From assembly GCF_002407185.1 (NCBI RefSeq), contig NZ_CP023563.1, forward strand, positions 2,542,001-2,606,000: DNA of 64,000 nt, written 5' to 3'. The notes beneath the pieces were generated by a model. The model saw only the letters and a list, made by a program, of their open reading frames with translations. It was not told where the DNA came from and ran no database searches. The translations under genes were made by a program, and so were the position numbers. The stretch comes from Brachybacterium vulturis (lineage in GTDB: Bacteria > Actinomycetota > Actinomycetes > Actinomycetales > Dermabacteraceae). Below, piece by piece: positions 30,269-60,684 of the stretch (position 1 is the stretch's first letter; each line of letters starts with the position of its first letter).

Positions 30269-30871
30269 TCAGAGCCCGATCTGACCGGCAGTGGAGTCTT
30301 CGACAGCGCTGGCCGGACGGACGTACCTGGCCAGTGAGTCCAGTCGCCGATGCCGGGTGGTGCGCGCGATGGTCATCGGGTCGAGCCCTGCTTCGGCGGC
30401 CGAGGTGGCATGCCCTGCACGAAGCGAGTGGCCGGAGATCCGGGACTCGGTGCCGAACACCTGGGAATACTCCTTGCCCGTGACCCCGGCTGCCGCCGCG
30501 CGAGCCTGGACGATCCGGGCGATGGAACGGTCGGAGATCTTCGTGGTGGACACGCGTGCCTGGTTGAAGACGCGGGAAAATAGCGGGTGCCCGTCACCGA
30601 TTCGTCGGCCGCTCGCTTCTAGCCAGTCTTCGACCGCGAGAACGGGGCAGGTCTCAGGGTGTTTTCCCAGGGGCACCCCGATCACGTCTCGTTTCCCCGT
30701 CTGGTCTGTCTTCGAAGGCCTGATGCGCACGAGGAGTCCGCTGTCGAGGCGGGTGAGGTCCTTGGTGGTCAGATCGGCGATTTCGCTGCGACGTTGGGCA
30801 GTTGCCAGACCCAACAGGAGAACTGCGCGATCACGCTTGCCGACAATGGTGGACAGATCGTCCATCGACTC
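30269..30871 (-). pseudogene. 3' half of a split tyrosine recombinase
   Basis: These 200 codons and a stop encode the catalytic C-terminal domain of a tyrosine recombinase: ATAQRRSEIADL supplies the first Arg, SGHSLRAGHATS the His-x-x-Arg, and TRHRRLDSLARYVR the second His and the nucleophile Tyr. The N-terminal half is missing here, and the frame instead runs in from an ISL3-family transposase. The missing half is at 60,274-60,684 on the same strand. Joining ATG ATT there to GAG TCG ATG here restores a 337-residue recombinase without losing a base. Confidence 0.85.
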
Positions 30872-32058
30872 AATCGCCTCGGTGGGACCGTTGCTGGTGC
30901 CGGGTCGGTCGAAGAATGCCAGGACGTCGTCAGCGCGTTTAGCCAGCGTCCGGCCCAGCTTTCCCAGCTCGACGAGGGCGTCCGGGGCCTTCGCGCTGAG
31001 TGCCGCGATGACCTTCTCCATCATCGTTCTGGCTCGGACCCGGTCGGCTTCTCGATAGGCGGCGATCATGGCCTGGGAGATCTCCCAGGTCGCCTCGACC
31101 GCGGCGTGCTTCTCACTGCTGAACAGACTGCTGAGGCGCTCGCTCTGCCGCTCGGTAAGGAACTTGGACCCGGTGTGGAGAGTGCGGCGGGCCTTGTAGA
31201 GCGGGTCGTCCTTACGGCCTCTGCGCTGGTGGAGCTGCTGCTGGATCCGGCGCCGACAGTCATCCAGAGCGTCCCCGGCGAGGCGGACGACGTGGAACGG
31301 ATCCATCACCGCGACCGCGCCGGGCAGGGCCTCGCTGGTGGCGGTCTTGAACCCGGAGAACCCGTCCATCGCGACGACCTCGATATGGTCCTTCCACGCC
31401 TCGGGGCGGGCCTCCAGCCAAGCCTTGAACGCTGCTTTGAAACGTCTCTCGAGCATGTCCAGCAGCCTCGCCGGCCCGGTCTTGTCCCTGATGGGGGTGA
31501 GGTCGATGATCACGGTGACGTACTTGTCGCCGCGGCGGGTGTGGCGCCAGACATGCTCATCGACGCCGATCACGCGAACGCCGTCGAAGCGGGCCGGGTC
31601 ATCGATGAGCAGTCGTTTCCCCTCGGCCAAGACGGCGTCGTTCGCGGTGTGCCAGGCCACGCCCAGCCCAGCGGCGACCCGCGCGATCGAAAGGTGATCG
31701 ATGACCAGGGCCTCCAGCGCCCACCGCATCCCGCCACGGGAGAGCTTCGCCCGCTCGGCCGCTGCAGCGGTGATGTCCTCGCGCCAGCGGTACCCGCAGT
31801 GGTCACACAGGTAACGGCGGATCCGCACCAGCAGCGTCGTGGGACGGTGACCGAACGGCTCCTGCGCCAGGTCCGCGAGATGGAGCCCCGCGAGGTCGAG
31901 AGTGCTCCGCAGGCGCGGCACCATGGATCCTCCTCGGCGACCCGGCATTCCAGCACCGCTCGGTGGGCCGTGAGTCTTTGGCCGACCACGACCAGACCGA
32001 GTTCCTCGAGCCGGGTGAAGGTCGTCAGGTCGGGGCTGTCGAAGGTAGCGTTGGGCAC
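30872..32058 (-). pseudogene. ISL3-family transposase, frameshifted and truncated
   Basis: The N-terminal zinc-binding part (MPNATFDSPDLTTFTRLEEL ... WCRACGA) is in one frame, and the rest, starting near STLDLAGLHLADLAQEPFGH, is in another, so a frameshift lies near 31,915. The second frame has the DDE region with VIGVDEHVW and VAMDGFSGFK and then MDPFHVV. The coding sequence then breaks after TSNGPTEAI and continues into recombinase sequence. A complete ISL3 transposase would be about 420-440 residues; this one lacks its last segment. Confidence 0.85.
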
Positions 32059-32177
32059 GTCGAGGTCTTCCTGATGGCGAGCGTGAGAACTTCCATCTTC
32101 GGGAGACCTCGGCGTCTATCCCGGCACCGGCGCGCCCGGCCCGTGCCCCGCAGCTACCCTCTCAGCTGCGAAGAGCC
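30872..32177 (-). mobile_element. Truncated ISL3-family insertion sequence
   Basis: This is the 5' portion of an ISL3-type element, read leftward. The outer end is set by GGCTCTTCGCAGC (minus strand, starting at 32177), a typical ISL3 terminal repeat. The other terminal repeat is absent because the element stops at the junction with the split recombinase. The transposase within is also frameshifted, so this copy cannot move by itself. Confidence 0.75.
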
Positions 32178-32349
32178 TCAAAAACGTGCTCACCAGCCCT
32201 AATATCCTCAGGACGGCTGCGAACCGCTCTCAACCTGTGCAAGTCAGGAGGGAGGGGGCAGCACGCTGTTCACGGCGTCGCGTGTCCAGATCCGCTCCCG
32301 GATCCCGACACCGTCGAGATCCCCACCTCCACCAGGACATGAAGAACCC

Positions 32350-32375
32350 CCGTCACCTGCCGCAGCAGGTGACGG
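32350..32375 (-). terminator. Strong hairpin downstream of the 33430 gene
   Basis: CCGTCACCTGC and GCAGGTGACGG form a perfect 11-bp stem with a 4-base loop, 24 bases past the stop of the membrane protein gene. There is no long U tract, which is usual for GC-rich hosts. Confidence 0.65.
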
Positions 32376-32398
32376 CGGCTTCCTCCGAGTGGGGGCGT

Positions 32399-33430
32399 TC
32401 AGCCTTGGGCGGCCTCCTGCTCGAGCCAGCTGCGCTTCCAGTCCTCAAGTTCGTCCAGGGACCAGTGGCCGTAGCCGATCCAGGTGACACCGCCGGATCC
32501 CCCAACGATGCCGCCGTCTGCGTTCGTGACGAGGCTTGGGGCGACGGGATCGGAGTGATTGCGCCGCGCCATCATGCTCTTGTGCAGCGTGCGCTGATCA
32601 GAACGCGGGATCGCGTCGATCGGGAAGTCGTCTCCGGGATAGACGCCGCGCGCCTTGGCTGCTTCGCTCAGACGCCTGGCTTCGAGATGGGTTTGCAGTT
32701 CACGCAGCAGATTCTTCGAGTGGGCATCGGGATCGTTCCTCTCCACATCCATCTGGTAGGCCTCCCAATCCATGTAGATCTGCTCATCCATGACCGCCGG
32801 CGGGGTCTTGCCCTCCCAGCGCTTCCGGCGGGCCTCTCGCACCTTCTCGCCCTTCAGGGCCTTCGTCTCCCTGCTCTCGATTCGTCGGTCCCTGCCGGTG
32901 ACGTGGACCAGACTGTCGAAAGCCGCCTCGAGACCCAGGAGGGTCAGGAGCAGGCCCGTGATGACGAGATCGGTGTCGGTCGGGTGGAGGTAGCTCTCCC
33001 CGACGAACATCAGGATCAGCCCGAGCGCGGCGGCAATCAGCCCCAGAGGCATGTTGATCAGCGGGACCGGCCGCACCAGGAGCAGGACGAACGTCGCGAA
33101 GAGCGCGGTCAGGAACGAGCTGTCCATCTCGACGCTCTGCGCCGACATTGCGATCCAGATGATGCCGCACGCGAGAGCGCGGGGGTAGAGCTGAAGGATC
33201 CACTTATCCTCGGGAATGGATTCACCGCGGAGCGGGTAGATCCGGATCAAGAGGTTGCGGAGACGACCCCACGCGATCACCGCGACCGCTGCTACTGCGA
33301 CGTTCTGAGCTGTATGCGGTGAAGGCTCGATGTCGTTCATGCCCGAGAACCACATGAAGAAATAGATGACGACGGCCAGCTTGAGGAGCCAGTAGACGGG
33401 GGCGGAGCGAATAGCTCGAACAAGCCGCAA
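32399..33430 (-). CDS. Hypothetical membrane protein
   Basis: This is a 343-residue protein from a TTG start at 33430, with a purine-rich GAGAG upstream. About six hydrophobic segments fill residues 10-165, including VVIYFFMWFSGM, LTALFATFVLLLV and LGLIAAALGLILMF types. The remaining half is soluble, basic and helical, with a charged segment KGEKVREARRKRWEGK. No transporter or enzyme signature is recognised. It lies inside the insert, between the ISL3 remnant and the SorC-type regulator, and ends at a strong hairpin. Confidence 0.6.
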   Translation of the reverse strand: MRLVRAIRSAPVYWLLKLAVVIYFFMWFSGMNDIEPSPHTAQNVAVAAVAVIAWGRLRNLLIRIYPLRGESIPEDKWILQLYPRALACGIIWIAMSAQSVEMDSSFLTALFATFVLLLVRPVPLINMPLGLIAAALGLILMFVGESYLHPTDTDLVITGLLLTLLGLEAAFDSLVHVTGRDRRIESRETKALKGEKVREARRKRWEGKTPPAVMDEQIYMDWEAYQMDVERNDPDAHSKNLLRELQTHLEARRLSEAAKARGVYPGDDFPIDAIPRSDQRTLHKSMMARRNHSDPVAPSLVTNADGGIVGGSGGVTWIGYGHWSLDELEDWKRSWLEQEAAQG

Positions 33431-33882
33431 AGTGCTCTCGTTTCTGTGAAGCGGTCCATCGAAAAGTGTCCGACAGGCGGCATCTTAGCCACTCATGAGG
33501 GCGGCTTCACGACGGGGGGATCCCTTCGAGGGAGACGACTGCACGAAGAGCGACTCCGTCTGGCGCGTCCGACGAGCGCGAGATCAGTCGTGACACCTCT
33601 TGGAGCTAAGCCTGCCGAACTTGCCGCCCCTCGCGCGCCGACAACCTAGTCAACTTGAACCTGGGGGTTCCGCGTGTCGCTCTTTAACACCATCGGGCTG
33701 ATCAATCCCCCTAACAGGAGCGCGCCCCGCCCGAGCTCCCGAGGGGGTCGCTCCACCACCAGCTGTCGTAGCCCCAGTCCCCCTCGCCTAGGTGTATGAG
33801 GTCATGACGTTGTCGACACCGGGGTGCGATCGGTGGGCAGGTCGCGGCAGCCGAGCTCGGTCACCAACCGCACGGTCCCCGG
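33431..33882. other. Intergenic region without a recognised gene
   Basis: These 452 bases contain no frame with a ribosome site and natural composition. The region separates the membrane protein promoter side from the 3' end of the SorC-type regulator. No repeat of note was seen. Confidence 0.4.
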
Positions 33883-34842
33883 TCATAGAAGTCGCCCGCC
33901 CGGCCGGTCGGCGTTCTCGAGCACTTGCCGGGCAGCTCCCTCGGCGGTTACCAACGTGTCCGCCACACCTGCTCGCAGCGCCGCAACGACAGCATGCGAT
34001 CGTTCTGCACGGGCGACGACCACGACATTCTCGCGGGTGGCGCGGAGTCTTTCGAGGGGTACGGCGAGGCAGCATGCGGTGACGGCGGGGGCGACGGTTT
34101 TGCCCTCCCTGTCGATCAGGTGACCGCAGAATTCGGCGACGGCACCCTCCCGCGTGGCCCGCTGGCGCAGTCCCTCATCGAGGGCTGGGGCGTCGAACAC
34201 ATTGGACTCCCCTGCTTCCCAGGAGCCGATGGTGATCAGGGCGAGCCTCAGCCGGTCCCAGGTGGCAAAGGCCCGCACCAGGCTCGGATGCTGCTGCTTC
34301 TCCGCGGCGAGCGCAGCAGTAGGCTGCACCATCGGCTCATAGACCGGGCGCACCTTCTGCTCGGTCATCCGGGCAGCCCGCCGCACCGTCTCCACGGAGC
34401 TGTCGGAGACACTGCCGGGCGCGGTGAGTCCGGTGAGCTGGACGACCTCACTGCGGGGCAGCCGACGGATCGCGGAGACGACCCGGTTGACTGTGTATCC
34501 GCAGGCGAGGCCGACGACATCCCCCGCCTCGGCACTGTCCTCGATCGCATCTGCGGCGGCGCGCTCAAGGGCTGGCCGGCCGCCCTCATCCGGTGTCACC
34601 AGCACCCGCCCCACCCCGTGCACCCGGCCCAGCTCCGCCAGTTCCCGGGAGAGACCCGAATCGAGGCCGGGCGGGTCGGCGATGCGGATGTCCACCCAGC
34701 CCTGTTCCCGAGCGGCCTGCATCAGCCTGCCGGCGCGGAACCGGCTGATACTGAGCTCGGCCGCGATCTCGGTGAGCGACCGGCCGTCCACCAGATGCGC
34801 TCTGGCGACCTCGATTGCCTGCAGTGCACTCCAGGTGTCCAT
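33883..34842 (-). CDS. SorC-family sugar-responsive transcriptional regulator
   Basis: This is a 319-residue regulator starting MDTWSALQAIEVARAHLVDG after GAGGGAGGG. The N-terminal helix-turn-helix is SLTEIAAELSISRFRAGRLM. The large C-terminal domain is the SorC effector domain, recognisable from GLACGYTVNRVVSAI, EVVQLTGL and the end with AVPLERLRATRENVV. SorC proteins bind phosphorylated sugars and control adjacent catabolic genes. It diverges from the alcohol dehydrogenase gene at 35047, and the inverted repeat ATAGCC/GGCTAT in between is a candidate operator. Confidence 0.88.
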   Translation of the reverse strand: MDTWSALQAIEVARAHLVDGRSLTEIAAELSISRFRAGRLMQAAREQGWVDIRIADPPGLDSGLSRELAELGRVHGVGRVLVTPDEGGRPALERAAADAIEDSAEAGDVVGLACGYTVNRVVSAIRRLPRSEVVQLTGLTAPGSVSDSSVETVRRAARMTEQKVRPVYEPMVQPTAALAAEKQQHPSLVRAFATWDRLRLALITIGSWEAGESNVFDAPALDEGLRQRATREGAVAEFCGHLIDREGKTVAPAVTACCLAVPLERLRATRENVVVVARAERSHAVVAALRAGVADTLVTAEGAARQVLENADRPGGRLL

Positions 34843-34858
34843 CGGCCCTCCCTCGCGA

Positions 34859-34886
34859 ATAGCCCGTGCCGTGCCTCGAAGGCTAT
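34859..34886. promoter_or_regulatory. Inverted repeat between SorC gene and dehydrogenase gene
   Basis: ATAGCC (34859-34864) and GGCTAT (34881-34886) form a symmetric pair 16 bases apart, just upstream of the SorC gene start. It is a candidate autoregulatory operator, with no other support. Confidence 0.3.
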
Positions 34887-35046
34887 CCCTCGCGGATCCT
34901 TTGTGCCCCAGCCCACACCCCCGGTGCTCATCCGAGCGCAGGACGGTGCGGCTCGGCCCGATTCGATTGACGCCAACACCTACGGATCTGGATGCTCGAA
35001 AGCACCCCCCAGCGCTGTGAGCGCCCATCCGTCGAAGGAGACAGAC

Positions 35047-36141
35047 ATGACCGGCACCGCCACCCCCACCGCGGGTCCGCAGGACACCTCCGCGAGCACC
35101 GGGGAGACGACCATGCAAGCCGCGTACCTGCCCGGCGGATCGCGGACCGAGCTGCACAGTGTCCCGATCCCGGAGCCCGGCCGCGGCCAGGTCCTCCTCG
35201 AGGTGCGCGCCTCGACCATCTGCGGTAGCGACCTCCGCGCTATCTACCGCGAGCACCTGGGATCCGGCCCCGAGGCCTACCAGGGCGTAATCGGCGGGCA
35301 TGAGCCCTGCGGACGAGTCGTCGCCGTGGGCGAGGACGTCCAGGCCACCGCCGTCGGCGACCGCCGCGTTGTCTACCACATCTCCGGATGCGGTCTCTGC
35401 GAGGAGTGCCGCCGCGGATACCCCATCGGCTGCCTCTCGCCCCGCCGCGCCGCCTACGGCTGGCAGCGGGACGGCGGCCACGCCGAGTACCTGCTGGCCG
35501 AGGAGAAGGACCTCCTCTCCCTGCCGGACTCCCTCACCTACCTCGACGGCGCCTGCGTCGCCTGCGGCTTCGGCACCGCCTACGAGGCATTGCGCCGGGC
35601 CGACGTCACCGGCGCCGACACCGTCCTGGTCGTCGGGCTCGGCCCCGTCGGCCTCGCCACCGGGATGCTAGCCCGCGCTCTGGGCTCCACGACCGTCGTC
35701 GGCACCGATCCCTCCCCCGACCGCCGGGCGCAGGCGCTCGAGCTCGACGCTGTCGACCACGCCGTGGAGGCCGCCGACCTCCCCGGACTGCTCGGGGACG
35801 GCGCGCACGTGGCACTGGACTGTTCGGGTAGCGGGGCCGGCCAGTCCACCGCCCTGCGGAGTACTCGCCGCTGGGGCCGCACCGTGCTGGTGGGAGAGGG
35901 CGGCACGCTCACCACAGACGTCTCCGCGGAGCTGATCCACCGGCAGATCACTCTGCACGGCTCCTGGGTCTCGAGCATCCACCACATGCGTGAGCTGCTC
36001 GAAAACCTCGACCGCTGGGGCCTGCACCCCGAGAAGATCGTCACCCACGCCTTCCCCCTCGCCCAGGTCGACGAGGCATACCGGACCGCGGACTCCGGTG
36101 TCGGGGGCAAGGTCGCCGTGGTGCGGAGCGACGACCGATGA
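35047..36141 (+). CDS. Zinc-dependent medium-chain alcohol/polyol dehydrogenase
   Basis: This is a 364-residue MDR enzyme starting MTGTATPTAGPQD with GAAGGAG upstream. Catalytic zinc ligands lie in STICGSD and GGHEPCG; structural zinc cysteines are in SGCGLCEECRRGYPIGC. The NAD-binding motif is VVGLGPVGLATG. The substrate is probably a sugar alcohol or ketose, as suggested by the SorC regulator beside it. Its stop overlaps the ATG of a broken transporter gene, so an operon for uptake and oxidation once existed here. Confidence 0.85.
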   Translation: MTGTATPTAGPQDTSASTGETTMQAAYLPGGSRTELHSVPIPEPGRGQVLLEVRASTICGSDLRAIYREHLGSGPEAYQGVIGGHEPCGRVVAVGEDVQATAVGDRRVVYHISGCGLCEECRRGYPIGCLSPRRAAYGWQRDGGHAEYLLAEEKDLLSLPDSLTYLDGACVACGFGTAYEALRRADVTGADTVLVVGLGPVGLATGMLARALGSTTVVGTDPSPDRRAQALELDAVDHAVEAADLPGLLGDGAHVALDCSGSGAGQSTALRSTRRWGRTVLVGEGGTLTTDVSAELIHRQITLHGSWVSSIHHMRELLENLDRWGLHPEKIVTHAFPLAQVDEAYRTADSGVGGKVAVVRSDDR

Positions 36142-36292
36142 GCTCTCCCATCGCGCCCGTCTCACTCCCCGTGCCCTCGCGGCCGGTCATCCTCCTCGAG
36201 AAGTTGGGGCTCTCCGTCCCCTGTTGGTCGGCTACCTGGCCGTGCTGCTGTTTATGATCGGCGACAACATCGAGTCCCCATGGACCCGGTGA
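36138..36292 (+). pseudogene. 5' fragment of an MFS transporter
   Basis: An ATG overlaps the dehydrogenase stop (ATGA). About 25 codons on, the frame is broken, and a shift by one base gives LLVGYLAVLLFMIGDNIESP, the first helix of an MFS sugar or polyol transporter (GYLxLLLFMIGDGxE type). It ends after 8 more codons, and the 3' end of the RpiR gene follows within 5 bases. The rest of the transporter was lost. Confidence 0.65.
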
Positions 36293-36296
36293 GCGG

Positions 36297-37190
36297 TCAG
36301 GTGACAGTCTTGCCGGCGCGGAACCGACCGAGTTCACGCTTCATCGTCCGCACCCGATCGAGGTGATGGGTGCCAAGCTTGGCTGCCACAGCCGTGGCAA
36401 GGATGTCGATGACGACGAGGCCGGCGAGACGGCTGACTGTGGGGGTGAACACCTCTGTGTCCTCATAGGTCTTGGCGATGAGCGCCACGTCGCAGTACGG
36501 CACCAGGGGTGTTTGACCCCCGGTGAGGCCGATAACGGTTGCTCCGTACCGTCTCGCCAGCTCAGCGACCTCGAGCACGATCTCCGTGTTGCCGGTGTTG
36601 GAGATGATGAAAAAGACCGAGCCTGGCTCACACATGGACGCTGCCATGAATTGCTGATGCGCATCGGTCGGTGCGGAGCAGGGCACTCCGAACAGTCCGG
36701 ATTTCTGCTCGGCATCTTGGGCGATGATGCTCGAGGCGCCGAATCCGATGAACGTCACCGACGTCGCGGCGACCAGATGGTCGACGGCCAGGGCCAATGC
36801 CGCGGCATCGTAGGTCTTACGGGCCCGGTCAAGGCTACTGATGGTGTGGTCAAAGACCTTTTGCGCCATGATCTCCACAGAGTCGCCGGCTTCGATCCCC
36901 GAGTACGTGACCGGAACCCCCAGCGCGAGGACCTTCGCGAGGTCAAGCTTGAATGCCTGGAACCCGTCATATCCGAGCCGCAGCGCAAAACGCATCACTG
37001 TGGGCTCGGAGACGCCAGCGGCCTCTGCCACCGCGACCATCGTAGACCCGAGGATGTCCGCCGGAGACTCCAGTACGAGCTTGGCGACCTTCTGCTCAGA
37101 CTTCCGCATCGTCGACATCTCTTGGCGCAACCGCTCGAAAACCGAAAACCCCTCGACATACCGTGTCGTCGTAGAGTCGTGTGTAGTCAT
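36297..37190 (-). CDS. RpiR/HexR-family transcriptional regulator
   Basis: This is a 297-residue regulator from the ATG at 37190 with GGGGGAG upstream; a GTG one codon earlier is possible. The helix-turn-helix is in TMVAVAEAAGVSEPTVMRFA and GYDGFQAFKLDL. The C-terminal SIS domain (about 120-260), with FIGFGASSIIAQDAEQK and FFIISNTGNTEIVLEV, should bind a sugar phosphate. Close relatives such as HexR recognise TGTARTnnnAYTACA. Three promoters of this island carry GTAGTnnnACTAC, which makes this the likely controller. It is the last gene of the leftward operon. Confidence 0.9.
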   Translation of the reverse strand: MTTHDSTTTRYVEGFSVFERLRQEMSTMRKSEQKVAKLVLESPADILGSTMVAVAEAAGVSEPTVMRFALRLGYDGFQAFKLDLAKVLALGVPVTYSGIEAGDSVEIMAQKVFDHTISSLDRARKTYDAAALALAVDHLVAATSVTFIGFGASSIIAQDAEQKSGLFGVPCSAPTDAHQQFMAASMCEPGSVFFIISNTGNTEIVLEVAELARRYGATVIGLTGGQTPLVPYCDVALIAKTYEDTEVFTPTVSRLAGLVVIDILATAVAAKLGTHHLDRVRTMKRELGRFRAGKTVT

Positions 37191-37259
37191 CACTCCCCCT
37201 CCGTCAAGGCTTGGCCCGCAACAGATACGTGCCGTCGCGCGCCTGGAATTCGGTTGTGG

Positions 37260-37910
37260 TCATGGTGTGCGGCTGCGGAGCTGCGAGGCGTCCCGTGCCA
37301 ACTGCTCGATCGTGTCCCAATCCCCCGCCTCGACGGCTGCCTCTGGCGTGAGCCATGATCCACCGACGCACGCGACATTGGCGAGCGCGAGGTATTCCGA
37401 GGCATTCTTCCGATTCACGCCGCCGGTGGGGCAGAACTGCAGATCAGGTAGCGGTCCGCGAACGCTGGAAAGATAACTCATCCCGCCAGCAGCTTCCGCA
37501 GGGAAGAACTTCATGGATCGCCACCCGCGACTCGCGAGCTGCATCATCTCACATACCGTGGCTGCGCCGAGCAGAGCGGGAATATCGGCATCCAGGACGG
37601 CCTCCTGGAGCTCCCGCGGAGATCCCGGCGAGACGATGAAACGTGCGCCAGCCTCCACTGCGAGGAAGACCTGCTCGGGGGTGGTCACCGTGCCGGCGCC
37701 AAGCGTGATCTCGGGAACCTCCGCCGTTATCGCCCGAATCGCATCGATCGCCGCACTGGTGCGCAGCGTCAGCTCGATCACCGGTACACCTCCACGCACG
37801 AGCGCCTTAGCCACGTTCACGGCTGTCTCGACGTTCGGCACTTTGACTACGGGCACCACTGGGCTGATCCGGCAGATCTCTTCAATCGTGCTGTCTCCGT
37901 CTGTACTCAT
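37260..37910 (-). CDS. eda: KDPG/KDPGal-type 2-keto-3-deoxy aldolase
   Basis: This is a 216-residue class I aldolase. Lys134 in RSMKFFPAEAAGG is the Schiff-base lysine; Glu46 and Arg50 in GVPVIELTLR match the catalytic pair of E. coli Eda (Glu45, Arg49, Lys133) by position. CPTGGV is the phosphate loop. It cleaves 2-keto-3-deoxy-6-phospho-sugar acids to pyruvate and glyceraldehyde 3-phosphate or a related aldehyde. The ATG at 37910 fits better than one three codons upstream. Its presence means the pathway passes through a 2-keto-3-deoxy acid. Confidence 0.92.
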   Translation of the reverse strand: MSTDGDSTIEEICRISPVVPVVKVPNVETAVNVAKALVRGGVPVIELTLRTSAAIDAIRAITAEVPEITLGAGTVTTPEQVFLAVEAGARFIVSPGSPRELQEAVLDADIPALLGAATVCEMMQLASRGWRSMKFFPAEAAGGMSYLSSVRGPLPDLQFCPTGGVNRKNASEYLALANVACVGGSWLTPEAAVEAGDWDTIEQLARDASQLRSRTP

Positions 37911-37928
37911 GCTTGTCACCTCTTCTCC

Positions 37929-40381: not shown

Positions 40382-40387
40382 AGCACC

Positions 40388-51945: not shown

Positions 51946-52707
51946 ATGAAGAACCCTTTTGACCTCACCGGCCGTACCGCCCTGGTCACAGGCGGCAACC
52001 AGGGCCTCGGTAAGGCCTTCGCCCGAAGCCTCGCCGAAGCCGGCGCATCTGTAGTGATCGCGGCCCGCAATGCCGAGCGGAACCGCGCCGTGATGGGCGA
52101 GTTCGCCGCGGACGGCATCACCGTGAATGCCATCACAGCGGATATCACCGACGCCGCTGACATCGAACGCATGGTCACCGAGACGATCGAGGCCGCCGAC
52201 CGGATCGACATCCTCGTCAACAACGCAGGCACCTGCATTCACAATCCCGCCTTCGACGTCACCGAGCAGGAGTGGGATGACGTGTTCAACCTGAATGTGA
52301 AGGCCCTGTGGCGCACCACCCGAGCGGTGGGCGAGCACATGGTGAAAATCGGGGGTGGCTCGGTTGTGAACATCGGGTCAATGTCCGGGTTCATCGTCAA
52401 CCGACCCCAGTGGCAGCCGGCCTACAACGCATCCAAGGCAGCGGTGCATCACCTCACTAAGTCACTCGCAGTGGAATGGGCTCCCCTGAACATCCGCGTG
52501 AACGCCGTGGCCCCCGGCTACGTGAAAACCGAGATGTCCCCTGTGGATCAGCCCGAGTTCCAGCGCTACTGGGTCGAGGACACCCCGCAGCAGCGCGTCG
52601 CGCTGCCCGAGGAGATCGCTCCCAGCGTCGTATTTCTCGCCAGCGATGCCGCATCATTCATCACCGGCACCGTGCTCTCCGCCGACGGCGGTTACACCGC
52701 GGTCTGA
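51946..52707 (+). CDS. Short-chain dehydrogenase/reductase
   Basis: This is a 253-residue classical SDR beginning MKNPFDLTGRTALVTGG, with GGAGG 6 bases upstream. The TGxxxGxG motif is TGGNQGLGK, then LVNNAG, Ser in NIGSMSG and YNASK as the catalytic pair; C-terminus SADGGYTAV. AARNAERNR after the second strand suggests NADP preference. It resembles gluconate 5-dehydrogenase or polyol dehydrogenases. It shares the GSMSGFIVNRPQ feature with the SDR at 47292, so the two may act on related substrates. Confidence 0.9.
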   Translation: MKNPFDLTGRTALVTGGNQGLGKAFARSLAEAGASVVIAARNAERNRAVMGEFAADGITVNAITADITDAADIERMVTETIEAADRIDILVNNAGTCIHNPAFDVTEQEWDDVFNLNVKALWRTTRAVGEHMVKIGGGSVVNIGSMSGFIVNRPQWQPAYNASKAAVHHLTKSLAVEWAPLNIRVNAVAPGYVKTEMSPVDQPEFQRYWVEDTPQQRVALPEEIAPSVVFLASDAASFITGTVLSADGGYTAV

Positions 52708-53030
52708 CCTAGCAGCCAGGCCCGGTGAGGTCCGTGGCGATTCCGCTGCGGTGGGGATCGGCGGGCGGCGCTCCTCTGCATTCCACTATCTGAGCACGGG
52801 CGCTGCGGGCGCGCAATCGCGATTATTGCCGAGGTCAGGTCGGGGTGCCCCTGCTGGCGCCCGCGCACGAGCCCGCGCCCCTCGCGCGTCACTAGAGATC
52901 GAATTTCTCCGGTATACCGGCCATCCTTTCGACTTCAAATGGCAGCGGCACAAGACCTAGGAACAGTGCCGGACAGTTGGAGGTGCGCCTAAACCGGCTC
53001 GCAGACAGTTTCCGTCAGCCAGCACGGAAG
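52708..53030. other. Intergenic region with a possible coding relic
   Basis: No complete gene is seen. A short frame ending at 52,960 has natural-looking sequence (EIEFLRYTGHPFDFKW) but no start or context, so it may be the tail of a lost gene. The promoter of the second transporter follows directly. Confidence 0.3.
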
Positions 53031-53031
53031 C

Positions 53032-53065
53032 TTGACATCCCCCTGATAGCGAGTAGTATCACTAC
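53032..53065 (+). promoter_or_regulatory. Promoter and RpiR-type operator of ABC system B
   Basis: TTGACA (53032-53037) and TAGTAT (53054-53059) are 16 bases apart and close to consensus. The palindrome GTAGTATCACTAC (53053-53065) covers the -10. It is the reverse complement of the core of the site at 48212. The leader to the ATG at 53255 is about 190 bases. Confidence 0.75.
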
Positions 53066-53254
53066 AAGCTTTTCGCGATGTCGCGAAGAGAAATTCTCGG
53101 CGCTCGCCCAACCAGGCTTGAAAGGGTCGGCCAGGGCAGACGCCGGGTGACCGACCCGCCTTCAGGGACTGCCCGATCGGGCAGCGTCCACCCTCGCCCA
53201 GCTGGCTGTCTCGCGGACATCCGACAGGCCCCACCAATGACGTTGGAGGTACGA

Positions 53255-54352
53255 ATGCTCTCCCTTCACAACACGCCTAAGTACACTCGCAGGACCGTGT
53301 CCGCCGCGATCGCGGCACTCTCGCTCGCGGCATGCTCCTCGACGAGCGGCGGCGGAGATGAGCCGGCAGCCGGCTCCGACGGCGACGTCCAGCTCGTGCT
53401 GGCGATCCGATCGCTGTCCAACCCGTACCACGCCAACTGGGTCGAAGGCGCGGAAATCTTCGCTGAATCCATTGGCCAGGAGCTGACCGTCCTCAGTGAT
53501 GACGGGGATTCCCAGAAGCAACTCTCCCAGATCCGTTCGCTGCTCGCGTCCGGTCAGACCATCGCACTGAATGTCGATCCGAACACCTCATCGGACACCC
53601 AAGCGATTGTGCGCGCCGTGGCTGACGCCGGAGGCTACGTCGTGACGCAGTGGAACAAGCCGGACGACCTGATGCCGGCGGATATTGGCGAAAACTGGGT
53701 TGCGCACGTCTCCTTCGACGGCATCGAGAGTGGCTACCAGATTGCCACCGCACTGTTCGATGAGATGGGCGGCGAAGGCGGCATCATCGCACTCCAGGGC
53801 ATCCTCGACAACGTCCCGGCACAGCAGCGCTTTGAAGGTCTGCAGAAGGCGTTGGAAGAGTACCCCGGCATCGAGCTGCTCGATGAGCAGACCGCAGAGT
53901 GGGACCGCAACACCGGCTTCGAAGTCACCCAGACCCTGCTGACCAAGCATGGCGAGGAGGTCCAGGGCATCTGGGCGGCCAACGACAACATGGCCCTCGG
54001 CGCGCTGGAGGCGATCAAGGCCGCCGGTCGCGGTGGCGGCGAAGTTCCCCTCGTGGGTGTCGACGCCGTCCCCGAGGCTCTGGACGAGATCGAGTCTGGT
54101 GAGAACGGATACCTCGCCACCGTGACGACCGATGCCTGGTGGCAGGGTGCGGTGCCGCTGGTACTCGCCTACAGGGCCGCCATCGGCGAGTTTGACGTCG
54201 CCGCCGCCACTCCGGAGCAGCGGGCCTTCTACGGTACCCAGTTCCTCGTGACGCAGGAGAACGTCGCCGAGCACATGGCGGCGCCAACGGCCGAAGAGCT
54301 CCAGGCCGACATCGACGACCCGTTCCTTCGGATCACGGCACCGATCGAGTAG
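53255..54352 (+). CDS. Sugar-binding lipoprotein of ABC system B
   Basis: This is a 365-residue protein from the ATG at 53255, preceded by GGAGG; longer frames upstream are non-coding. The signal peptide with RRTVSAAIAALSLAAC ends in a lipobox. The mature part is a type 1 periplasmic-binding fold with LAIRSLSNPYHANWVEGAE, ALNVDPNTSSDTQA and GIWAANDNMALGALEAIKAA. The binding pocket differs from that of system A (for example NPYHANW against VQDAPYF), so it probably takes a different sugar. Confidence 0.93.
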   Translation: MLSLHNTPKYTRRTVSAAIAALSLAACSSTSGGGDEPAAGSDGDVQLVLAIRSLSNPYHANWVEGAEIFAESIGQELTVLSDDGDSQKQLSQIRSLLASGQTIALNVDPNTSSDTQAIVRAVADAGGYVVTQWNKPDDLMPADIGENWVAHVSFDGIESGYQIATALFDEMGGEGGIIALQGILDNVPAQQRFEGLQKALEEYPGIELLDEQTAEWDRNTGFEVTQTLLTKHGEEVQGIWAANDNMALGALEAIKAAGRGGGEVPLVGVDAVPEALDEIESGENGYLATVTTDAWWQGAVPLVLAYRAAIGEFDVAAATPEQRAFYGTQFLVTQENVAEHMAAPTAEELQADIDDPFLRITAPIE

Positions 54353-54377
54353 GCCTGTTCGCTCGACTCAGAGAAAT

Positions 54378-54419
54378 AGTGCCGTCCGCGGCCCGGTCCA
54401 CCAAACCACGGACGGCACT
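54378..54419 (+). terminator. Hairpin between binding-protein and permease genes (system B)
   Basis: AGTGCCGTCCG (54378-54388) pairs perfectly with CGGACGGCACT (54409-54419), 11 bp with a 20-base loop, just after the binding-protein stop. It probably attenuates downstream expression or stabilises the upstream message. Confidence 0.6.
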
Positions 54420-54434
54420 GACGAAAGGCCAATG

Positions 54435-55475
54435 ATGTCGCAAGGACCACAGGTCCCTAAGAGTCCCGCACCTCCCTCGGAGGCGGCCACTATACAACCG
54501 GGACGATCCACCCTAAGGGGCTGGGCTCGCCGGCTGGTCAACATCGGCCCGCCGGTCGCGCTGGTGGCGCTGATCGTGTTGTTCGCCCTGTTGAGCGACC
54601 GATTCTTCACCGCCGCGAACCTCGGTGGCATCGCCAACCAGTCGTCGATCCTCCTCGTCATGGCGGTCGGTATGACCTTCGTCATCCTGCTCGGCGGCAT
54701 CGATCTGTCGACCGAGGGCGTCATGGCGACATCATCGATGGTCGTCGTGCTGCTGGCCGCCAACGATCGCAACGACAACGACTTCGGCATGCTTGCCGTT
54801 CTCGCCGGTGCCGGGGTCGGCGCGCTGTTCGGGCTGGTCAACGGGGTGCTGCACACCCGGCTGAAAATCCCCTCGTTCATGGTGACGCTGGGCGTCGGAG
54901 CGATCGGCACGGGTATCGCCACCGTGCTCTTCGCCGGCCGAGCCCCGCAGTTGCTTGACGAAGGAGTGCGTAGCTGGGGCCTGGGCCAGTGGCTCGGGGT
55001 CTCCAAGCTCGTCTTTATCGCGCTGCTGGTCGTCCTCATCGGCTACGGGATCCAACGTTTCACCCGGGCAGGGCGCTACGCCTACGTCATCGGCGGCGAC
55101 GAGTCCATTGCGCGGCTGTCAGGCATCTCCATCCCCAAGTACAAGACGCTGGCCTTTGTCATCTCCGGATCAACCGCCGGGCTCGGCGGGGCCATGGCCT
55201 CGATGCGCCTCGGTGTGGGAGACGTCCAGATCGGCGCCGGCCAGATGTTCGCCACCATCACCGCCGTGGTCATCGGCGGCACCCTGCTCGCCGGCGGTCG
55301 CGGCGGCGTGCTGCAAACCGTTATCGGTGCACTGATCATCGCCACGCTGGCCAACGGACTCATCCTCGTCGGCGTGCCACCGTACATACAGGTATCGCTG
55401 CAAGGTGCCATCATCGTCGTCGCGGTCGCCGGCACCGGTTGGCACCTGCGCAACAGGACAAGGGTCATTAAATGA
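54435..55475 (+). CDS. CUT2-family sugar ABC permease, system B (first)
   Basis: This is a 346-residue permease (ATG at 54435; another ATG one codon before). It has about nine hydrophobic segments starting with VALVALIVLFALLSD. Family marks are LLGGIDLSTEGVMA and IGGTLLAGGRGGVL. The coupling region is AGRYAYVIGGDESIARLSG. Its TGA overlaps the ATG of the ATPase gene. System B has two different permeases, so its pore is a heterodimer, unlike system A with one. Confidence 0.9.
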   Translation: MSQGPQVPKSPAPPSEAATIQPGRSTLRGWARRLVNIGPPVALVALIVLFALLSDRFFTAANLGGIANQSSILLVMAVGMTFVILLGGIDLSTEGVMATSSMVVVLLAANDRNDNDFGMLAVLAGAGVGALFGLVNGVLHTRLKIPSFMVTLGVGAIGTGIATVLFAGRAPQLLDEGVRSWGLGQWLGVSKLVFIALLVVLIGYGIQRFTRAGRYAYVIGGDESIARLSGISIPKYKTLAFVISGSTAGLGGAMASMRLGVGDVQIGAGQMFATITAVVIGGTLLAGGRGGVLQTVIGALIIATLANGLILVGVPPYIQVSLQGAIIVVAVAGTGWHLRNRTRVIK

Positions 55476-56995
55476 GCCAGCCCGTGATTTCTCTCGAGAA
55501 CGTGTCCAAGCGTTTCCCCGGCGTCCTCGCGATGGACTCAGTGAGCATGGAGCTCCGGCCGCATGAGGTCGTCGGCCTTATTGGCGAGAACGGTGCCGGG
55601 AAGTCCACCTTGTTGAAGATCCTCTCCGGCGTCTACCAACCGGATGAGGGAGTCATGAAGCTGGGCGGCGACCCGATCCGGCTACGTACCCCGCGTGCGG
55701 CAGCCGACGCCGGTATCGGGATGGTCCACCAGGAACAGTCGCTCATCGGGACGGTTTCCGTCGCAGAGAACATCCTGCTCGGTTCCGAGGGCTCGTCGGT
55801 GCGCGCCGGCATCTACCGCTGGGGCGAGATCAACCGGCGTGCCCAGCGACAGCTGGACAAGATCCAGTCCTCGATCAAGCCGACCGATAAGACCGAGTCG
55901 CTCACCTTCGCCCAGCGTCAGCTTGTCGAGCTCGCCAAGGCGCTGGGCGTGGAGGAACGCTCAGACAATGAGCCGGTGATCATCCTCGACGAACCGACCT
56001 CGGTGCTCGACGGCGACGATCTCGAGACGCTGTTCGAACAGGTCGAGCGACTGCGCTCAATCGCCTCGGTCGTCTTTGTCTCCCACCGCCTAGACGAGGT
56101 GCTGCGCGTCTCGGACCGCGTCTACGTCATGAAGGACGGCAAGGTCGTGGCCGAACGGGACCCCAAGACAGTCCACGTCGACGAGCTCTACAGGCTGATG
56201 GTCGGGCGCGAGTCCAGCGGTGGCTACTACCGCGAGGACGAGCAGCTGGCGATCACCGAGGACGCCCCCGTGGTGCTCGAGATAAACGCGCTCAACCGCG
56301 ACAATTCTTTCCGCGACATCAACCTCAAGGTGCGTGCTGGTGAAGTCCTCGGCCTCACCGGCGTGGTCGGCTCTGGTCGCGAAGGCCTGTGCCGCAGTCT
56401 CTTCGGCGCCGAACACTTCGACTCGGGGGAGGTCCTGCTCAACAACTCCCGGGTGCACTTCAGCTCGCCGCCGGACGCCGTCGACGTCGGTATCGGCTAC
56501 GTCCCCGCCGAGCGGCGCACCGAAGGTGTGGCGATGGGATTGTCCGTCGAACAAAACATCGTGCTGGCCGACCCAAGCACCGTGAGCACCGCAGGCGTCG
56601 TCGTGCCCTCGCGACGTTCGGCGCTGGTCGCCGAGTGGACCGACCGGCTGAAGATCAAAACGCCGACGCCACACGTCGATGTCGCCAACCTCAGTGGTGG
56701 CAACCAGCAGAAGGTCGTTCTGGCTAAGTGGCTGAGCTCGCCGAAGCTCAAGGTGCTCATACTCGACCACCCGACTCGAGGGCTCGATGTCGGGGCGAAG
56801 GAGGATGTGTTCACGTTCGTCCGCGAGGCGTGCGCCGAGGGCCTGGCGATCGTCCTCCTCGCCGACACGCTGGAGGAAACCATTGCGCTGAGCCACCACG
56901 TCGTGGTGTTCCGCGATGGTGCAATCACCGCCGAGTTCCCCGCGGGCCCCGGCAACAAACCGACCCAGATTCAACTTGTGGAGGCGATGGTCTGA
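55472..56995 (+). CDS. CUT2-family sugar ABC ATP-binding protein, system B
   Basis: This is a 507-residue protein with two ABC domains. Domain 1 has GENGAGKSTLLKILSG and LDEPTSVLDGDD. Domain 2 has GVVGSGREGL in the P-loop position, LSGGNQQKVVLAKWL and LDHPTRGLDVGAK, where His replaces the usual Glu after Asp. That replacement may reduce hydrolysis at one site, which is common in the second domain of this family. It is coupled by overlap to both permease genes. Confidence 0.93.
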   Translation: MSQPVISLENVSKRFPGVLAMDSVSMELRPHEVVGLIGENGAGKSTLLKILSGVYQPDEGVMKLGGDPIRLRTPRAAADAGIGMVHQEQSLIGTVSVAENILLGSEGSSVRAGIYRWGEINRRAQRQLDKIQSSIKPTDKTESLTFAQRQLVELAKALGVEERSDNEPVIILDEPTSVLDGDDLETLFEQVERLRSIASVVFVSHRLDEVLRVSDRVYVMKDGKVVAERDPKTVHVDELYRLMVGRESSGGYYREDEQLAITEDAPVVLEINALNRDNSFRDINLKVRAGEVLGLTGVVGSGREGLCRSLFGAEHFDSGEVLLNNSRVHFSSPPDAVDVGIGYVPAERRTEGVAMGLSVEQNIVLADPSTVSTAGVVVPSRRSALVAEWTDRLKIKTPTPHVDVANLSGGNQQKVVLAKWLSSPKLKVLILDHPTRGLDVGAKEDVFTFVREACAEGLAIVLLADTLEETIALSHHVVVFRDGAITAEFPAGPGNKPTQIQLVEAMV

Positions 56996-57990
56996 TGGCT
57001 CAGACGGAGGTGGAGGTTGCGACGCCTGAACGTCGCGTCGGCCGAGCACTCGTATCCAGAAGCACGGTCGTCACCGCATTGCCACTGATCATGCTGATCG
57101 GGCTCGTGCTGGCGGTGAGCCTGCGCGAGCCTACGTTCCTCAGCGGCACCAGCTTGCGCACGCTGGCCGAGAGCTCGGTACCGATCATCCTGCTCGCACT
57201 CGGGCAGATGTTCGTCATCCTCACCGGTGGCATCGACCTCTCGCTCGCGGTACTCGCCTCGCTCGGCACCATTTTGCTGGCATCGTGGATCGATCCCCTA
57301 GGGATGGTCGGCATCATCCTCATGATCGCGTGCATCACCGGCGCAGGCCTCCTCAACGGTTTCATCGCCGCGTACGCGCAGATCCCGTCCTTCGTCGTGA
57401 CTCTTGGCGCGATGGGCCTGTGGTCGGGGGTAGCACTGGGCATCTCGGGCGCCTCGACCGTCTCGATCGGCGAGAACTACCCGCTTATCGGTTGGCTGAC
57501 TGGCACGCGGTTCGTCGGGGTGGCAATGAGCTTCTGGATGACAATGTTCGTCGTGGTCGTCGTATTGGTGCTCATGTCGTTCCTGGCGCGCGGCAATTCG
57601 CTACACACCATCGGGCTCGCCGAACGTGCGGCTTTCATGTCGGGGGTCCGAACCCGCCGAGCACGGATCATTGCCTTCGGCACCGCGGGGTTCTTCTCGG
57701 CGCTGGCTGCGATTGTGTTGTCCTCATCCCAGTACAGCGGTGCCCCGACCCTTGCTGACGCGCTTCTGCTGCCCGCGATCGCTGCTGTCATCGTCGGTGG
57801 CACGGCGATCACCGGCGGTATCGGTGGCCCACTTCGAACTGTCGTGGGTGCGCTGATCATCGGCGTGCTGCGGGTGGGGATGAGCATCCTGGGCGTCCCG
57901 CCGGCCTACGAGCAGATCGTGTATGGCGCGCTTATCGTGATCGCGGTGGCGCTTTCGATGGACCGGTCACGAGCCCGCGTCGTCAAATGA
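56995..57990 (+). CDS. CUT2-family sugar ABC permease, system B (second)
   Basis: This is a 331-residue permease that starts at an ATG overlapping the ATPase stop (TGATG). Hydrophobic segments begin at TALPLIMLIGLVLAVS; the signatures LTGGIDLSLAVLAS and VGGTAITGGIGGPLRT are those of the RbsC class. It is the last gene of the rightward island and ends about 200 bases before IS remnants begin. No terminator hairpin is evident. Confidence 0.9.
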   Translation: MAQTEVEVATPERRVGRALVSRSTVVTALPLIMLIGLVLAVSLREPTFLSGTSLRTLAESSVPIILLALGQMFVILTGGIDLSLAVLASLGTILLASWIDPLGMVGIILMIACITGAGLLNGFIAAYAQIPSFVVTLGAMGLWSGVALGISGASTVSIGENYPLIGWLTGTRFVGVAMSFWMTMFVVVVVLVLMSFLARGNSLHTIGLAERAAFMSGVRTRRARIIAFGTAGFFSALAAIVLSSSQYSGAPTLADALLLPAIAAVIVGGTAITGGIGGPLRTVVGALIIGVLRVGMSILGVPPAYEQIVYGALIVIAVALSMDRSRARVVK

Positions 57991-58185
57991 ACGCACCCGA
58001 GCGGGCCTCGCGGCCAAGCACGGCGCCGAAATATCGTCCCCATTCCTAGATGGAATTTCTCACCGGAACGTAGTGTGCTCGGAGCGCCAAAAACGGAATG
58101 AACCGGATGTAAGCATTCCTGTAGGCCAACCACGGGGCTGGCCTCCACGAACACTCACGACTGAAGCATCCCAGGTTCTCTGCCG

Positions 58186-58406
58186 CTACTTTGCAGGTTC
58201 GGGCTCTCGGGTGAGGGCCTCGTAGCGGAGCGTCTCGAACTCTATCGGGGTGAGCATCCCGAGGCAGCCGTGGAGGCGCCTGTTGTTGTACCAGTCGACC
58301 CAGCCAGCGGTCGCGAACTCGACGTCCGCGAGCGTCCTGAACGGCCCGCCGTGGAAGATGGTGGTGCGGATGCATTCGGTCTTGTACAGGCCGTTCACGC
58401 TCTCCA
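58186..58406 (-). pseudogene. 3' remnant of an IS3-family transposase, interrupted by IS1380 copy 2
   Basis: The leftward frame gives MESVNGLYKTECIR, then GWVDWYNNRRLHGCLGM and PIEFETLRYEA, the end of an IS3-type OrfB integrase core with the catalytic Glu in ESVNG. The IS1380 copy is inserted just before it. Across the insertion, bases 60,119-60,132 continue the frame with about VNAL before MESVNG. Everything further upstream of OrfB is missing. Confidence 0.8.
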
Positions 58407-58457
58407 TTAGCCTCGGTATTTCATGGTGGTGTGGTCCCGACCGGCGGACGGCATAGA

Positions 58458-58529
58458 GAAAGGTGCTCCTGACCTGGAATGATACGGGGTGTTGAAGCTC
58501 GTATCGATCTGGCGGAAGGAGCACCTTTC
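58458..58529 (+). promoter_or_regulatory. Fold-back inverted repeat over the transposase ribosome site (copy 2)
   Basis: This is the same 13-bp complementary pair as in copy 1, at 58458-58470 and 58517-58529. Confidence 0.55.
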
Positions 58530-58531
58530 AG

Positions 58532-59944
58532 GTGTCCCACCCTACCTTGTTCTTCTACCCCCGACCGCGAGTGGACATCGCCGAGGTCCCGGCGGTGTCG
58601 CATGCCGGCGCGGTGCTACTGACCGACACGATCGGTGCCACCGGCCTCGCCCGCTCGCTGCGCGAAGCACTGGATCCGTGGACGAAACCGCTGGCAGAGC
58701 ACCACGCGGCGAAGGTCTTGCTGGACCTGGCGATGACTCTCGCGGTGGGCGGGGAGGTCGCCTCGGATACCGATCTGCTGCGGTGCGAGCCGGGAGTGTT
58801 CGGTGACGTCGCCTCGGCTCCGACGATCTCCCGCATACTCACCGCGCTCGCCCAGGACGCTCCTGCCGTGATCGAAGCGATCTCCCAGGCCCGCCGGGTT
58901 GCGCGAGAGCGGGCATGGGTCCTGGCCGGCGACCATTCCCCGGCTGCGGCGGCCAGCGCAAAGAAGCCGCTGGTCATCGACCTCGACGCCACCTTGATCA
59001 CCGCCCACAGCGAGAAGGAGCAGGCCGCACCCAACTTCAAACGTGGCTACGGCTTTCACCCCCTGTGCGCGTTCCTGGACCACGGCAGCGACGGGACCGG
59101 GGAGCCGTTGGCGATCCAGCTCCGTCCCGGCAACGCCGGGTCCAACACGGCTGCCGATCACATCACCGTCACCCGTCAGGCTCTCGCTCAGCTGCCTGCG
59201 GGCCCGCTTGTCCGGGGTGGGCAGGGATCGAAGAAGGTCCTGATCCGCACCGATGGAGCCGGCGGCACCAAGGACTTCCTCCAGTGGCTGACCAGACGGC
59301 GGCTGGCTTACTCCGTCGGGTTCACCCTCCCCGCAAACACGCCTGACCTGCTGAAACGCATCGACGAGGCCGCGGCGTGGACCCCCGCCTATGACAGTGA
59401 CGACGATGGCGTCCGCGATGGGGCATTCGTGGCGGAGCTGACCGGACTGCTGGACCTGACCGGCTGGCCTGCGGGGATGCGGGTGATCGTGCGGAAGGAG
59501 CGCCCCCACCCCGGAGCGCAGCTGCGGATCACCGACCACGAAGGAATGCGGATCACCGCGTTCGCGACCAACACCCCGCGCGGCCAGCTGCCGACCCTGG
59601 AGCTGAGACACCGTCGCCGAGCGCGCTGCGAAGATCGGATCCGTAACGCCAAGGACATGGGCCTTGAGAAGTTCCCGCTGCAGGGATTCGCGCAGAACCA
59701 GATCTGGTGCCAGATCATCCAGCTCGCCTCCGAGCTGGTCGCCTGGATGCAGACCATCGCGCTGACCAGTACTGATGCGAGGAAGTGGGAGCCCAAACGA
59801 CTTCGCGCGCGGCTGTTCGAGGTCCCCGCGATCCTCGTGCGCCGTGCCCGGCGCAAGATCCTCCACCTCGCCCAGCACGCTCCCGAAGCCATTAAGGTCC
59901 TGACCGGCGTCAACCGGCTCCGCACCGCCGTCGCGCAGACCTGA
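58532..59944 (+). CDS. IS1380-family DDE transposase, copy 2
   Basis: This is a 470-residue transposase with the same protein sequence as copy 1, including Asp152, Asp241 and Glu367. The GTG start is at 58532. Identity between the copies over the full frame indicates recent transposition or gene conversion. Homologous exchange between the two copies would remove the 53.5 kb between them. Confidence 0.93.
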   Translation: MSHPTLFFYPRPRVDIAEVPAVSHAGAVLLTDTIGATGLARSLREALDPWTKPLAEHHAAKVLLDLAMTLAVGGEVASDTDLLRCEPGVFGDVASAPTISRILTALAQDAPAVIEAISQARRVARERAWVLAGDHSPAAAASAKKPLVIDLDATLITAHSEKEQAAPNFKRGYGFHPLCAFLDHGSDGTGEPLAIQLRPGNAGSNTAADHITVTRQALAQLPAGPLVRGGQGSKKVLIRTDGAGGTKDFLQWLTRRRLAYSVGFTLPANTPDLLKRIDEAAAWTPAYDSDDDGVRDGAFVAELTGLLDLTGWPAGMRVIVRKERPHPGAQLRITDHEGMRITAFATNTPRGQLPTLELRHRRRARCEDRIRNAKDMGLEKFPLQGFAQNQIWCQIIQLASELVAWMQTIALTSTDARKWEPKRLRARLFEVPAILVRRARRKILHLAQHAPEAIKVLTGVNRLRTAVAQT

Positions 59945-60140
59945 CCAGGCGGCTCCACCTGTCCCTACGGCCCCCAGCACCTTCTCGGGAGTGGAACCCG
60001 ACCGCCCGCAACGGACACTGCGACAATCTGTCACACCCAGATGCCAGAATCAGCAGCTGAGCATCGGCAACGACGCCGACCGCCCCCGCTCACCAACCCG
60101 ATGAAACATCGAGGTTAGGGCGTTGACGCTCCTATAGTTG

Positions 60141-60273
60141 TCAACTCGCGATTTCGCCGGTTCTGGGGTTGATCTTGATGAGGTGGTAGACCTCGCGAAT
60201 GACGTAGCGCTTCAGGCAGCGGATGATGTCGCGTTTGCTTTTGCCTTCGGCGGTTCCGCGGGCGACGTAGGCG
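60141..60273 (-). pseudogene. 3' fragment of an IS110-type transposase
   Basis: Read leftward the frame gives AYVARGTAEGKSKRDIIRCL then KRYVIREVYHLIKINP and stops at 60,141. The pattern AYVARRTxEGKSKREIIRCLKRYxAREVY is the usual end of a group of actinobacterial IS110 transposases. Only about 43 residues remain. The fragment begins exactly where the 5' half of the split recombinase ends. Confidence 0.7.
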
Positions 60274-60684
60274 AATCATGCGGCGTATTGAAGCGGTAGT
60301 AAGGGGCGCGGCTCTTCGACTGGGTGCAGTGCCGTTGGCTCGCCCCACCGATCGTAGGGCGAGGCGGACACCATGGTGAGCCGTGGCGTCTTCAAGCCCG
60401 CCGTCGCGATGCGCGGCAGAAATCGCTGCAACATCTCGGGAGATCGTTGCATGGGACACGGTATTCGAGCGGTAGGCGATGAAGGCCGCGATCACTTCGG
60501 GTGAGGCCGGGAAGCTGCGGTATCCGCGCTCGCGGCACCACGTGGTGAAAGTGCGGATGGCGGAGGCGTAAGAGCGGCGCGTCTCTGCGGACCGACTGGA
60601 TGTCAGGAGGTCCCCGACGCTCTGGACGTCCTCGGGGCTGATCGCAGGGATATGCGAGGACGTGGTGTCGAGCTCTGCACCCAT
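60274..60684 (-). pseudogene. 5' half of a split tyrosine recombinase
   Basis: These 137 codons start at ATG 60684 (MGAELDTTSSHIPAISPEDV, with a GAGGGAGA site upstream) and encode the N-terminal core-binding domain of a tyrosine recombinase: SAETRRSYASAIRTFTTWC, SPEVIAAFIAY and APLTTASIRRMI. The catalytic half is missing. The frame then runs into IS110 sequence. Its natural continuation, ESMDDLSTIVGKRDRAVLLL, is at 30,871 and below. The gene lies downstream of the excisionase-like gene in the same direction. Confidence 0.85.

Follow-up and report, generated by a model that had tools for sequence, protein, structure and literature searches.

A 29.4-kb sugar-catabolism insert splits a tyrosine recombinase gene of Brachybacterium vulturis without loss of target sequence

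How does a block of sugar-catabolism genes come to lie inside a tyrosine recombinase gene that would read through without a gap if the block were taken out? The question is raised by a 64,000-nucleotide stretch of the Brachybacterium vulturis genome (NZ_CP023563.1, positions 2,542,001 to 2,606,000; hereafter the window, whose numbering is used unless genome coordinates are given). A sequence-only reading had placed the two halves of such a gene on either side of a 29.4-kb insert and had attributed the insert to a single event. We find that the clean single-site insertion is real and that its mechanism is probably of a known kind. The explanation that we favour, and regard as narrowly probable, is that a foreign fragment was captured in the recombinase gene by Ku/LigD end joining. 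The parts in question are the following.

30269..30871, minus strand: 3' part of the interrupted tyrosine recombinase gene, 200 aa, catalytic domain (PF00589, E 4.1e-15)
30873..60274, no strand assigned: insert, 29,402 bp if there is zero duplication (30876-60273 if the flanking GATT is a duplication)
60274..60684, minus strand: 5' part of the same gene, 137 aa (PF02899, E 5.8e-5, scanned as 60115-60684; joined to the 3' part in six same-genus loci)

The two parts, of 137 and 200 amino acids plus stop, lie on the same strand, in the right order and in frame, and together encode 337 amino acids, all as originally proposed. Pfam assigns to the 5' part a SAM-like domain of the N-terminal type (23.7 bits against a cut-off of 22.3) and to the 3' part a Phage_integrase domain; as expected of the tyrosine recombinase family, the two domains fall within one gene, and they are contiguous in six close homologues. 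Single homologous genes span both parts, which bears out the claim of one recombinase rather than pieces of two subfamilies, and the six closest intact homologues add no residues where the parts meet. The list of open reading frames also contains a 559-aa frame (30269-31948) that runs from the truncated ISL3 transposase described below into the recombinase catalytic domain; it is a chance fusion of a DDE transposase and a tyrosine recombinase, without the ISL3 N-terminus.

Related genomes were searched with the 3' piece of the gene, and 27 of 148 matched, our own included; 20 matches were loci (our own and 19 others). These 19 and seven more on viral contigs make up the 26 loci in which the distance between the two parts was determined; weaker matches lie outside this set. 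Both parts are present in 23 of the 26, always on one strand and in order. At the join there are exactly 0 extra nucleotides in the six same-genus loci (67-85% identity in the 3' part) and between -6 and +69 in the other 17 (35-45% identity). The 3' part stands alone in three loci (L022, L028 and L125); of these, L028 is the seventh same-genus match, in genome G023, and is a 3' fragment of 60 residues only.

The related genome G013 aligns to window positions 24,825-30,844 and 60,365-62,809 on one strand and in order, with 118 nucleotides between the aligned blocks. The window minus the insert has 27 + 91 = 118 nucleotides in the same place, and on this alignment G013 is an empty-site homologue from which the 29.4 kb is simply absent, because its spacing equals that of the window without the insert. 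Genomes G006 and G033 show the same agreement, with 99 and 80 nucleotides. The joined 18-mer across the recombinase junction has no exact copy in the B. vulturis genome; it has three exact matches in viral contigs, and none of these three stretches matches either recombinase part.

One nuance stands against a simple picture: the 5' start of the gene most resembles G013, and most of what follows has its nearest relative in G025. In the first 290 nucleotides, 17 sites match only G025 and 87 only G013. The last 121 nucleotides of the 5' piece (14:4, G025 to G013) and the first 120 of the 3' piece (13:5) are both G025-like, and the remainder of the 3' piece is 71:37. Exceptions to this trend within the 3' piece are nucleotides 601-660 (5:6) and 961 to the end (2:8). 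By Fisher test the blocks on either side of the join do not differ (p = 1.0), while the first two blocks do (p = 5e-7). Because the affinity is the same on both sides of the join, the two pieces are, as the alleles read, one gene. The main switch from G013 to G025 falls at about nucleotides 240-300 (window about 60385-60445), some 110-170 bp upstream of the join, which rules out a fusion of two alleles at the junction itself and suggests an older homologous recombination within the recombinase gene. Separately, the last 54 nucleotides of the gene lean back to G013.

The insert is bounded, as had been read from the letters, by broken transposases of two unrelated families, of which ISL3 is identified by NCBIfam and IS110 by plasmid copies. 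Four insertion sequence (IS) features lie at its borders.

30873..32177, minus strand: ISL3-family remnant (NF033550, 290.5 bits, cut-off 180; plasmid copies; reading frames)
58186..58406, minus strand: IS3-family transposase C-terminal remnant beside the IS110 tail (PF13683 47.0 bits and PF13333 38.4 bits, both above cut-off)
58411..60114, plus strand: complete IS1380-family element (TTAG target duplication at 58407-58410 and 60115-60118)
60119..60274, minus strand: IS110-family remnant, last about 43 codons and right end only (50 plasmid records, 60-90% identity)

On its outer side the ISL3 remnant reaches to about 32177; it is cut on its 3' side at about residue 396 of 433 (SNGPTEAI), and is frameshifted after about residue 62 (near 31.9 kb), with the N-terminal residues in another frame. 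The IS110 remnant is 91% identical to residues 314-356 of a 356-aa IS110 transposase; being so short a piece, it matches no Pfam or NCBIfam model, and its type is taken from the annotated plasmid copies. The IS3 remnant scores 48.8 bits over the last 52 positions of NF033516, below the whole-protein cut-off. The annotation of a Microbacterium plasmid shows the same arrangement, with an IS3 fragment, 45% identical to the remnant here, placed after an IS110. The IS1380 element sits at the border between these two remnants and ends about 160 bp short of the right junction. It may be a later arrival than the rest of the insert, because it has its own target duplication and the genome holds four further near-identical full copies (five with this one). 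The proposal of a single event is borne out in respect of the one clean insertion site, and less so as regards arrival of the insert in its present form.

Four target duplications of IS1380 were seen (CTAA, CTAG, TTAG and TTAG). A second full copy in the window, at 4941-6644, has mismatched flanks, CTAG and CTGG, unlike the other four full copies, possibly through rearrangement or mutation. Another ISL3 copy, 76% identical, lies at genome C1:300334-303283 and is interrupted by an IS1380 with a CTAG duplication; short ISL3 fragments occur at three other places in the genome.

ISL3 homology, traced in the longest plasmid matches, stops at 30873, and IS110 homology begins at 60274. Neither junction is an IS terminus, and the claim that neither flanking IS explains the insertion is upheld, since both ends of the insert lie inside transposase genes. 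With a slash marking the junction, the window reads GCGAT/TGAG on the ISL3 side, where related plasmid copies read GCGAT/CAAC (two) and GCCAT/GAAC (one); on the IS110 side it reads ATGAT/TCGC, where related copies read ACGA/TCGC (two) and ACCA/TCGC (one). All three related IS110 copies thus supply the junction T, and two of the three related ISL3 copies supply GCGAT, leaving overlaps with the related copies of 3 bp (GAT) on the ISL3 side and 1 bp (T) on the IS110 side. The target is rebuilt as CATGAT + TGAG = CATGATTGAG, with nothing lost or gained. This base-by-base attribution is likely rather than certain, because the six copies used are only 72-88% identical and are not the donor copies.

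The GATT present at both junctions had been put forward as a possible 4-bp target duplication. As a proven duplication it is ruled out, because the bases of related ISL3 and IS110 copies account for the repeat; a duplication of 1 to 4 bp is possible and not required. A restriction fragment cut at GATC is also rejected, as it would give the joins GATCGCC and GATCGAG, which are not observed. GATC is common (7.7-14.7 per kb in four sequences counted) and is absent from one of the three related copies on each side. One IS110 alignment extended 21 bases beyond the junction, but when the target sequence just upstream of the break was tested for likeness to IS110, three copies gave p 0.53, 0.57 and 0.03, and the resemblance is taken as chance.

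Between the IS remnants lie genes for sugar transport and catabolism.

32178..58185, no strand assigned: sugar-catabolism island (profile matches, mostly at family level and below NCBIfam cut-offs)

The island encodes two sets of ATP-binding cassette (ABC) sugar transporters, an FGGY kinase, a lactonase-like relative of phosphotriesterases, alcohol/polyol dehydrogenases and short-chain dehydrogenases/reductases (SDRs), a cupin glucose-6-phosphate isomerase (GPI), and regulators resembling HexR/RpiR and DeoR. Above the NCBIfam cut-offs are a xylulokinase model and, for both SDRs, a glucose-1-dehydrogenase subfamily model; the cupin isomerase and the DeoR-like sugar-binding domain exceed those of Pfam. 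The description of the insert as a sugar-catabolism island within a resident mobile-type element is thus borne out, with labels that are mostly family-level.

The inserted DNA is probably foreign, to judge from three results. A query with one plasmid copy of IS110 did not recover the missing portion of that element from the B. vulturis genome, the only other ISL3 3' part found there adjoins the ISL3 copy near 0.30 Mb, and the island was not found at high similarity in the genomes and plasmids searched. None of the 395 other genomes of the order, which are a sample, matches window 36,200-55,900 at E<=1e-150. Matches to window 37,900-52,900 occur in 36 of the 37 other genomes of the genus, the best among the matches listed being 754 bp at 68% and 503 bp at 72%. 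Megablast of window 34,000-58,000 against a plasmid collection gave no match, and a search for near matches in plasmids returned one 45-base match with the IS1380 and none with DNA of the resident island. A plasmid tblastn with the recombinase 5' part returned 257 records, none covering 80% of the query. A species collection contains 53 relatives of the lactonase, at most 65% identical, and at the 12 best of these 53 loci between 6 and 9 of 20 island protein queries match, with paralogous queries on one gene counted twice. In 2-kb steps the insert has a G+C content of 57-71%, for the most part lower than that of window 6,001-30,000 (67-70%), but window 1-6,000 and the right flank do not exceed the insert in G+C.

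The DNA that received the insert is itself a genomic island. The last 32 bp of tRNA-Pro(GGG) at its 3' end are repeated perfectly, with one copy inside the tRNA gene (genome 2485538-2485569) and the other at 2604777-2604808; the genome has no further copy within 2 mismatches. Two features mark the right edge.

61371..62636, plus strand: second recombinase-like gene (PF00589 24.6 bits, below the cut-off of 27.1; PHROG integrase, E 3.4e-8)
62777..62808, plus strand: attR-like 32-bp copy of the tRNA-Pro(GGG) 3' end, with its mate at genome 2485538-2485569

G013 and G033 cease to align with the window at the attR-like repeat. Because the repeat copies and this homology end at the same place, we place the resident island at genome C1:2485538-2604808, an extent of about 119 kb, or about 90 kb without the insert. 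As in known tRNA-integrated islands, a direct repeat of the tRNA 3' end stands at both edges, with a recombinase-like gene at one edge and FtsK-like and AAA_10 ATPases inside; here, however, the island is known from sequence, its mobility is putative, and the 29.4-kb block is a passenger and not part of the element core. The recombinase-like gene at 61371-62636 is possibly the working integrase of the island, and loss of the split recombinase therefore need not immobilise it. The window also contains defence-like genes at 1721-15581, encoding a type I restriction subunit (1721-4825), an N6/N4 methylase (7246-8418), a SNF2 helicase (9326-11740) and the AAA_10 ATPase (13059-15581).

Under end joining, the tRNA-Pro island would have carried an intact gene for the 337-aa recombinase besides its edge recombinase. 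A double-strand break would have arisen in that gene, and a linear foreign fragment of about 29.4 kb, with one end broken off within ISL3 and the other within IS110, would have been joined into the break by Ku/LigD or by a similar microhomology-guided illegitimate process. The joins fit microhomologies of about 3 bp (GAT) and 1 bp (T), and no target codon is lost. The locus offers one gene, one insertion point and donor ends in mid-gene, in a host with genes for Ku and a LigD-type ligase; as expected of capture by non-homologous end joining (NHEJ), the donor ends lie off element termini and there is little or no homology at the joins. Ku is encoded at genome C1:3539542-3540072 (167.6 bits, cut-off 25) and the NHEJ ligase domain, about 2.5 kb from it, at C1:3536124-3537071 (261.3 bits, cut-off 227.75). 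In 14 named control genomes the Ku model matches one, and the ligase model matches six, above the cut-off in one.

A comparable process is described for Streptomyces ambofaciens (PMC5869714). Half of the NHEJ scars there show 1-6 nt of microhomology, and 40% contain added nucleotides, among them fill-ins of 1-4 nt. Healed breaks also include five insertions of endogenous DNA, between 30 bp and 18.8 kb in size; a 30-bp piece among them matched the 5' end of a transposase gene. The likeness is of a fragment joined at a break with 1-6 nt of microhomology in a Ku/Lig host.

Several points weigh against this explanation. In S. ambofaciens the breaks were induced and endogenous DNA of no more than 18.8 kb was captured, whereas here the event is natural, the DNA is apparently foreign and 29.4 kb long, and we infer the mechanism. 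The target is kept perfectly, which is cleaner than many end-joining scars. Unless the donor was rich in IS, it is mere coincidence that IS genes hold both ends; microhomologies of 3 and 1 bp are not beyond chance, and their attribution to the donor could be off, given how distant the related IS copies are. GATC stands at the breakpoint in two of three related copies on each side, and end joining predicts no such thing. The donor was not found in the genomes and plasmids searched, and the presence of Ku and LigD genes alone proves nothing.

Other routes must account for the same junctions. An IS-flanked composite transposon also carries passenger genes between IS sequences, but it has intact IS of the same family at both ends; here the ISL3 and IS110 remnants are unrelated and truncated within their genes, no IS terminus lies at either junction, and GATT on both sides is explicable by donor bases. 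The IS sequence at both ends would also be accommodated if a smaller insertion bearing ISL3 and IS110 came first and homologous recombination in IS sequences later swapped in the sugar island. IS copies are natural substrates for recombination, and the genome has the 76% identical ISL3 copy, the short ISL3 fragments and five near-identical full IS1380 copies. Such a stepwise history nevertheless requires an earlier insertion that already had mid-gene IS ends, and no intermediate stage was seen, the join being at most 69 nucleotides in all 23 loci with both recombinase parts; we consider it unlikely. Misassembly is extremely unlikely: an assembler could be misled by the 1.7-kb IS1380, which lies about 160 bp from the right junction and is present in five near-identical copies in the genome, but the two junctions rebuild one target without codon loss and the genome is a single contig.

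The GATT on both sides invites two further explanations. In one, a unit with cryptic ends would have transposed and left a 4-bp GATT duplication, perhaps through an IS1380-type transposase acting on pseudo-ends. It would draw support from CCTCGGT, which lies one base inside the ISL3-side end of the insert and resembles an IS1380 terminus. The IS1380-family element ISEcp1 carries out one-ended mobilisation, in units of which one end is the true IS1380 terminus, flanked by the target duplication of the unit. The IS1380 here, however, stops about 160 bp inside the insert with its own TTAG pair, the four IS1380 duplications are unlike GATT, and the repeated bases divide into three that fit native ISL3 and one that fits native IS110, so that this route appears distinctly doubtful. 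A slim chance is left that some recombinase integrated, in site-specific fashion, a circle carrying ISL3 and IS110 fragments fused at a GATC/GATT core. The GATC at the breakpoints in two of three related ISL3 and two of three related IS110 copies would fit, but a simple crossover predicts GATCGCC on the IS110 side, where GATTCGCC is observed, and no recombinase was identified among the scanned insert proteins, IS genes apart. A search for the joint pattern in 396 genomes of the order, our own included, gave two hits, one of which reads as what we take to be a methyltransferase-like gene, and the surroundings of neither match an ISL3 or IS110 protein. We think it very unlikely that an undescribed integration route moves large catabolic blocks through short GATY-like cores, with a 4-bp GATT duplication and ends within transposase genes.

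Large blocks of genes are thought to be gained by bacteria mainly through dedicated elements or homologous recombination. If the insert was captured by end joining, the locus would be a natural example of end joining feeding gene transfer, here of a 29-kb metabolic island into a host with Ku and LigD, and the exact junctions together with an empty-site homologue make the case testable.

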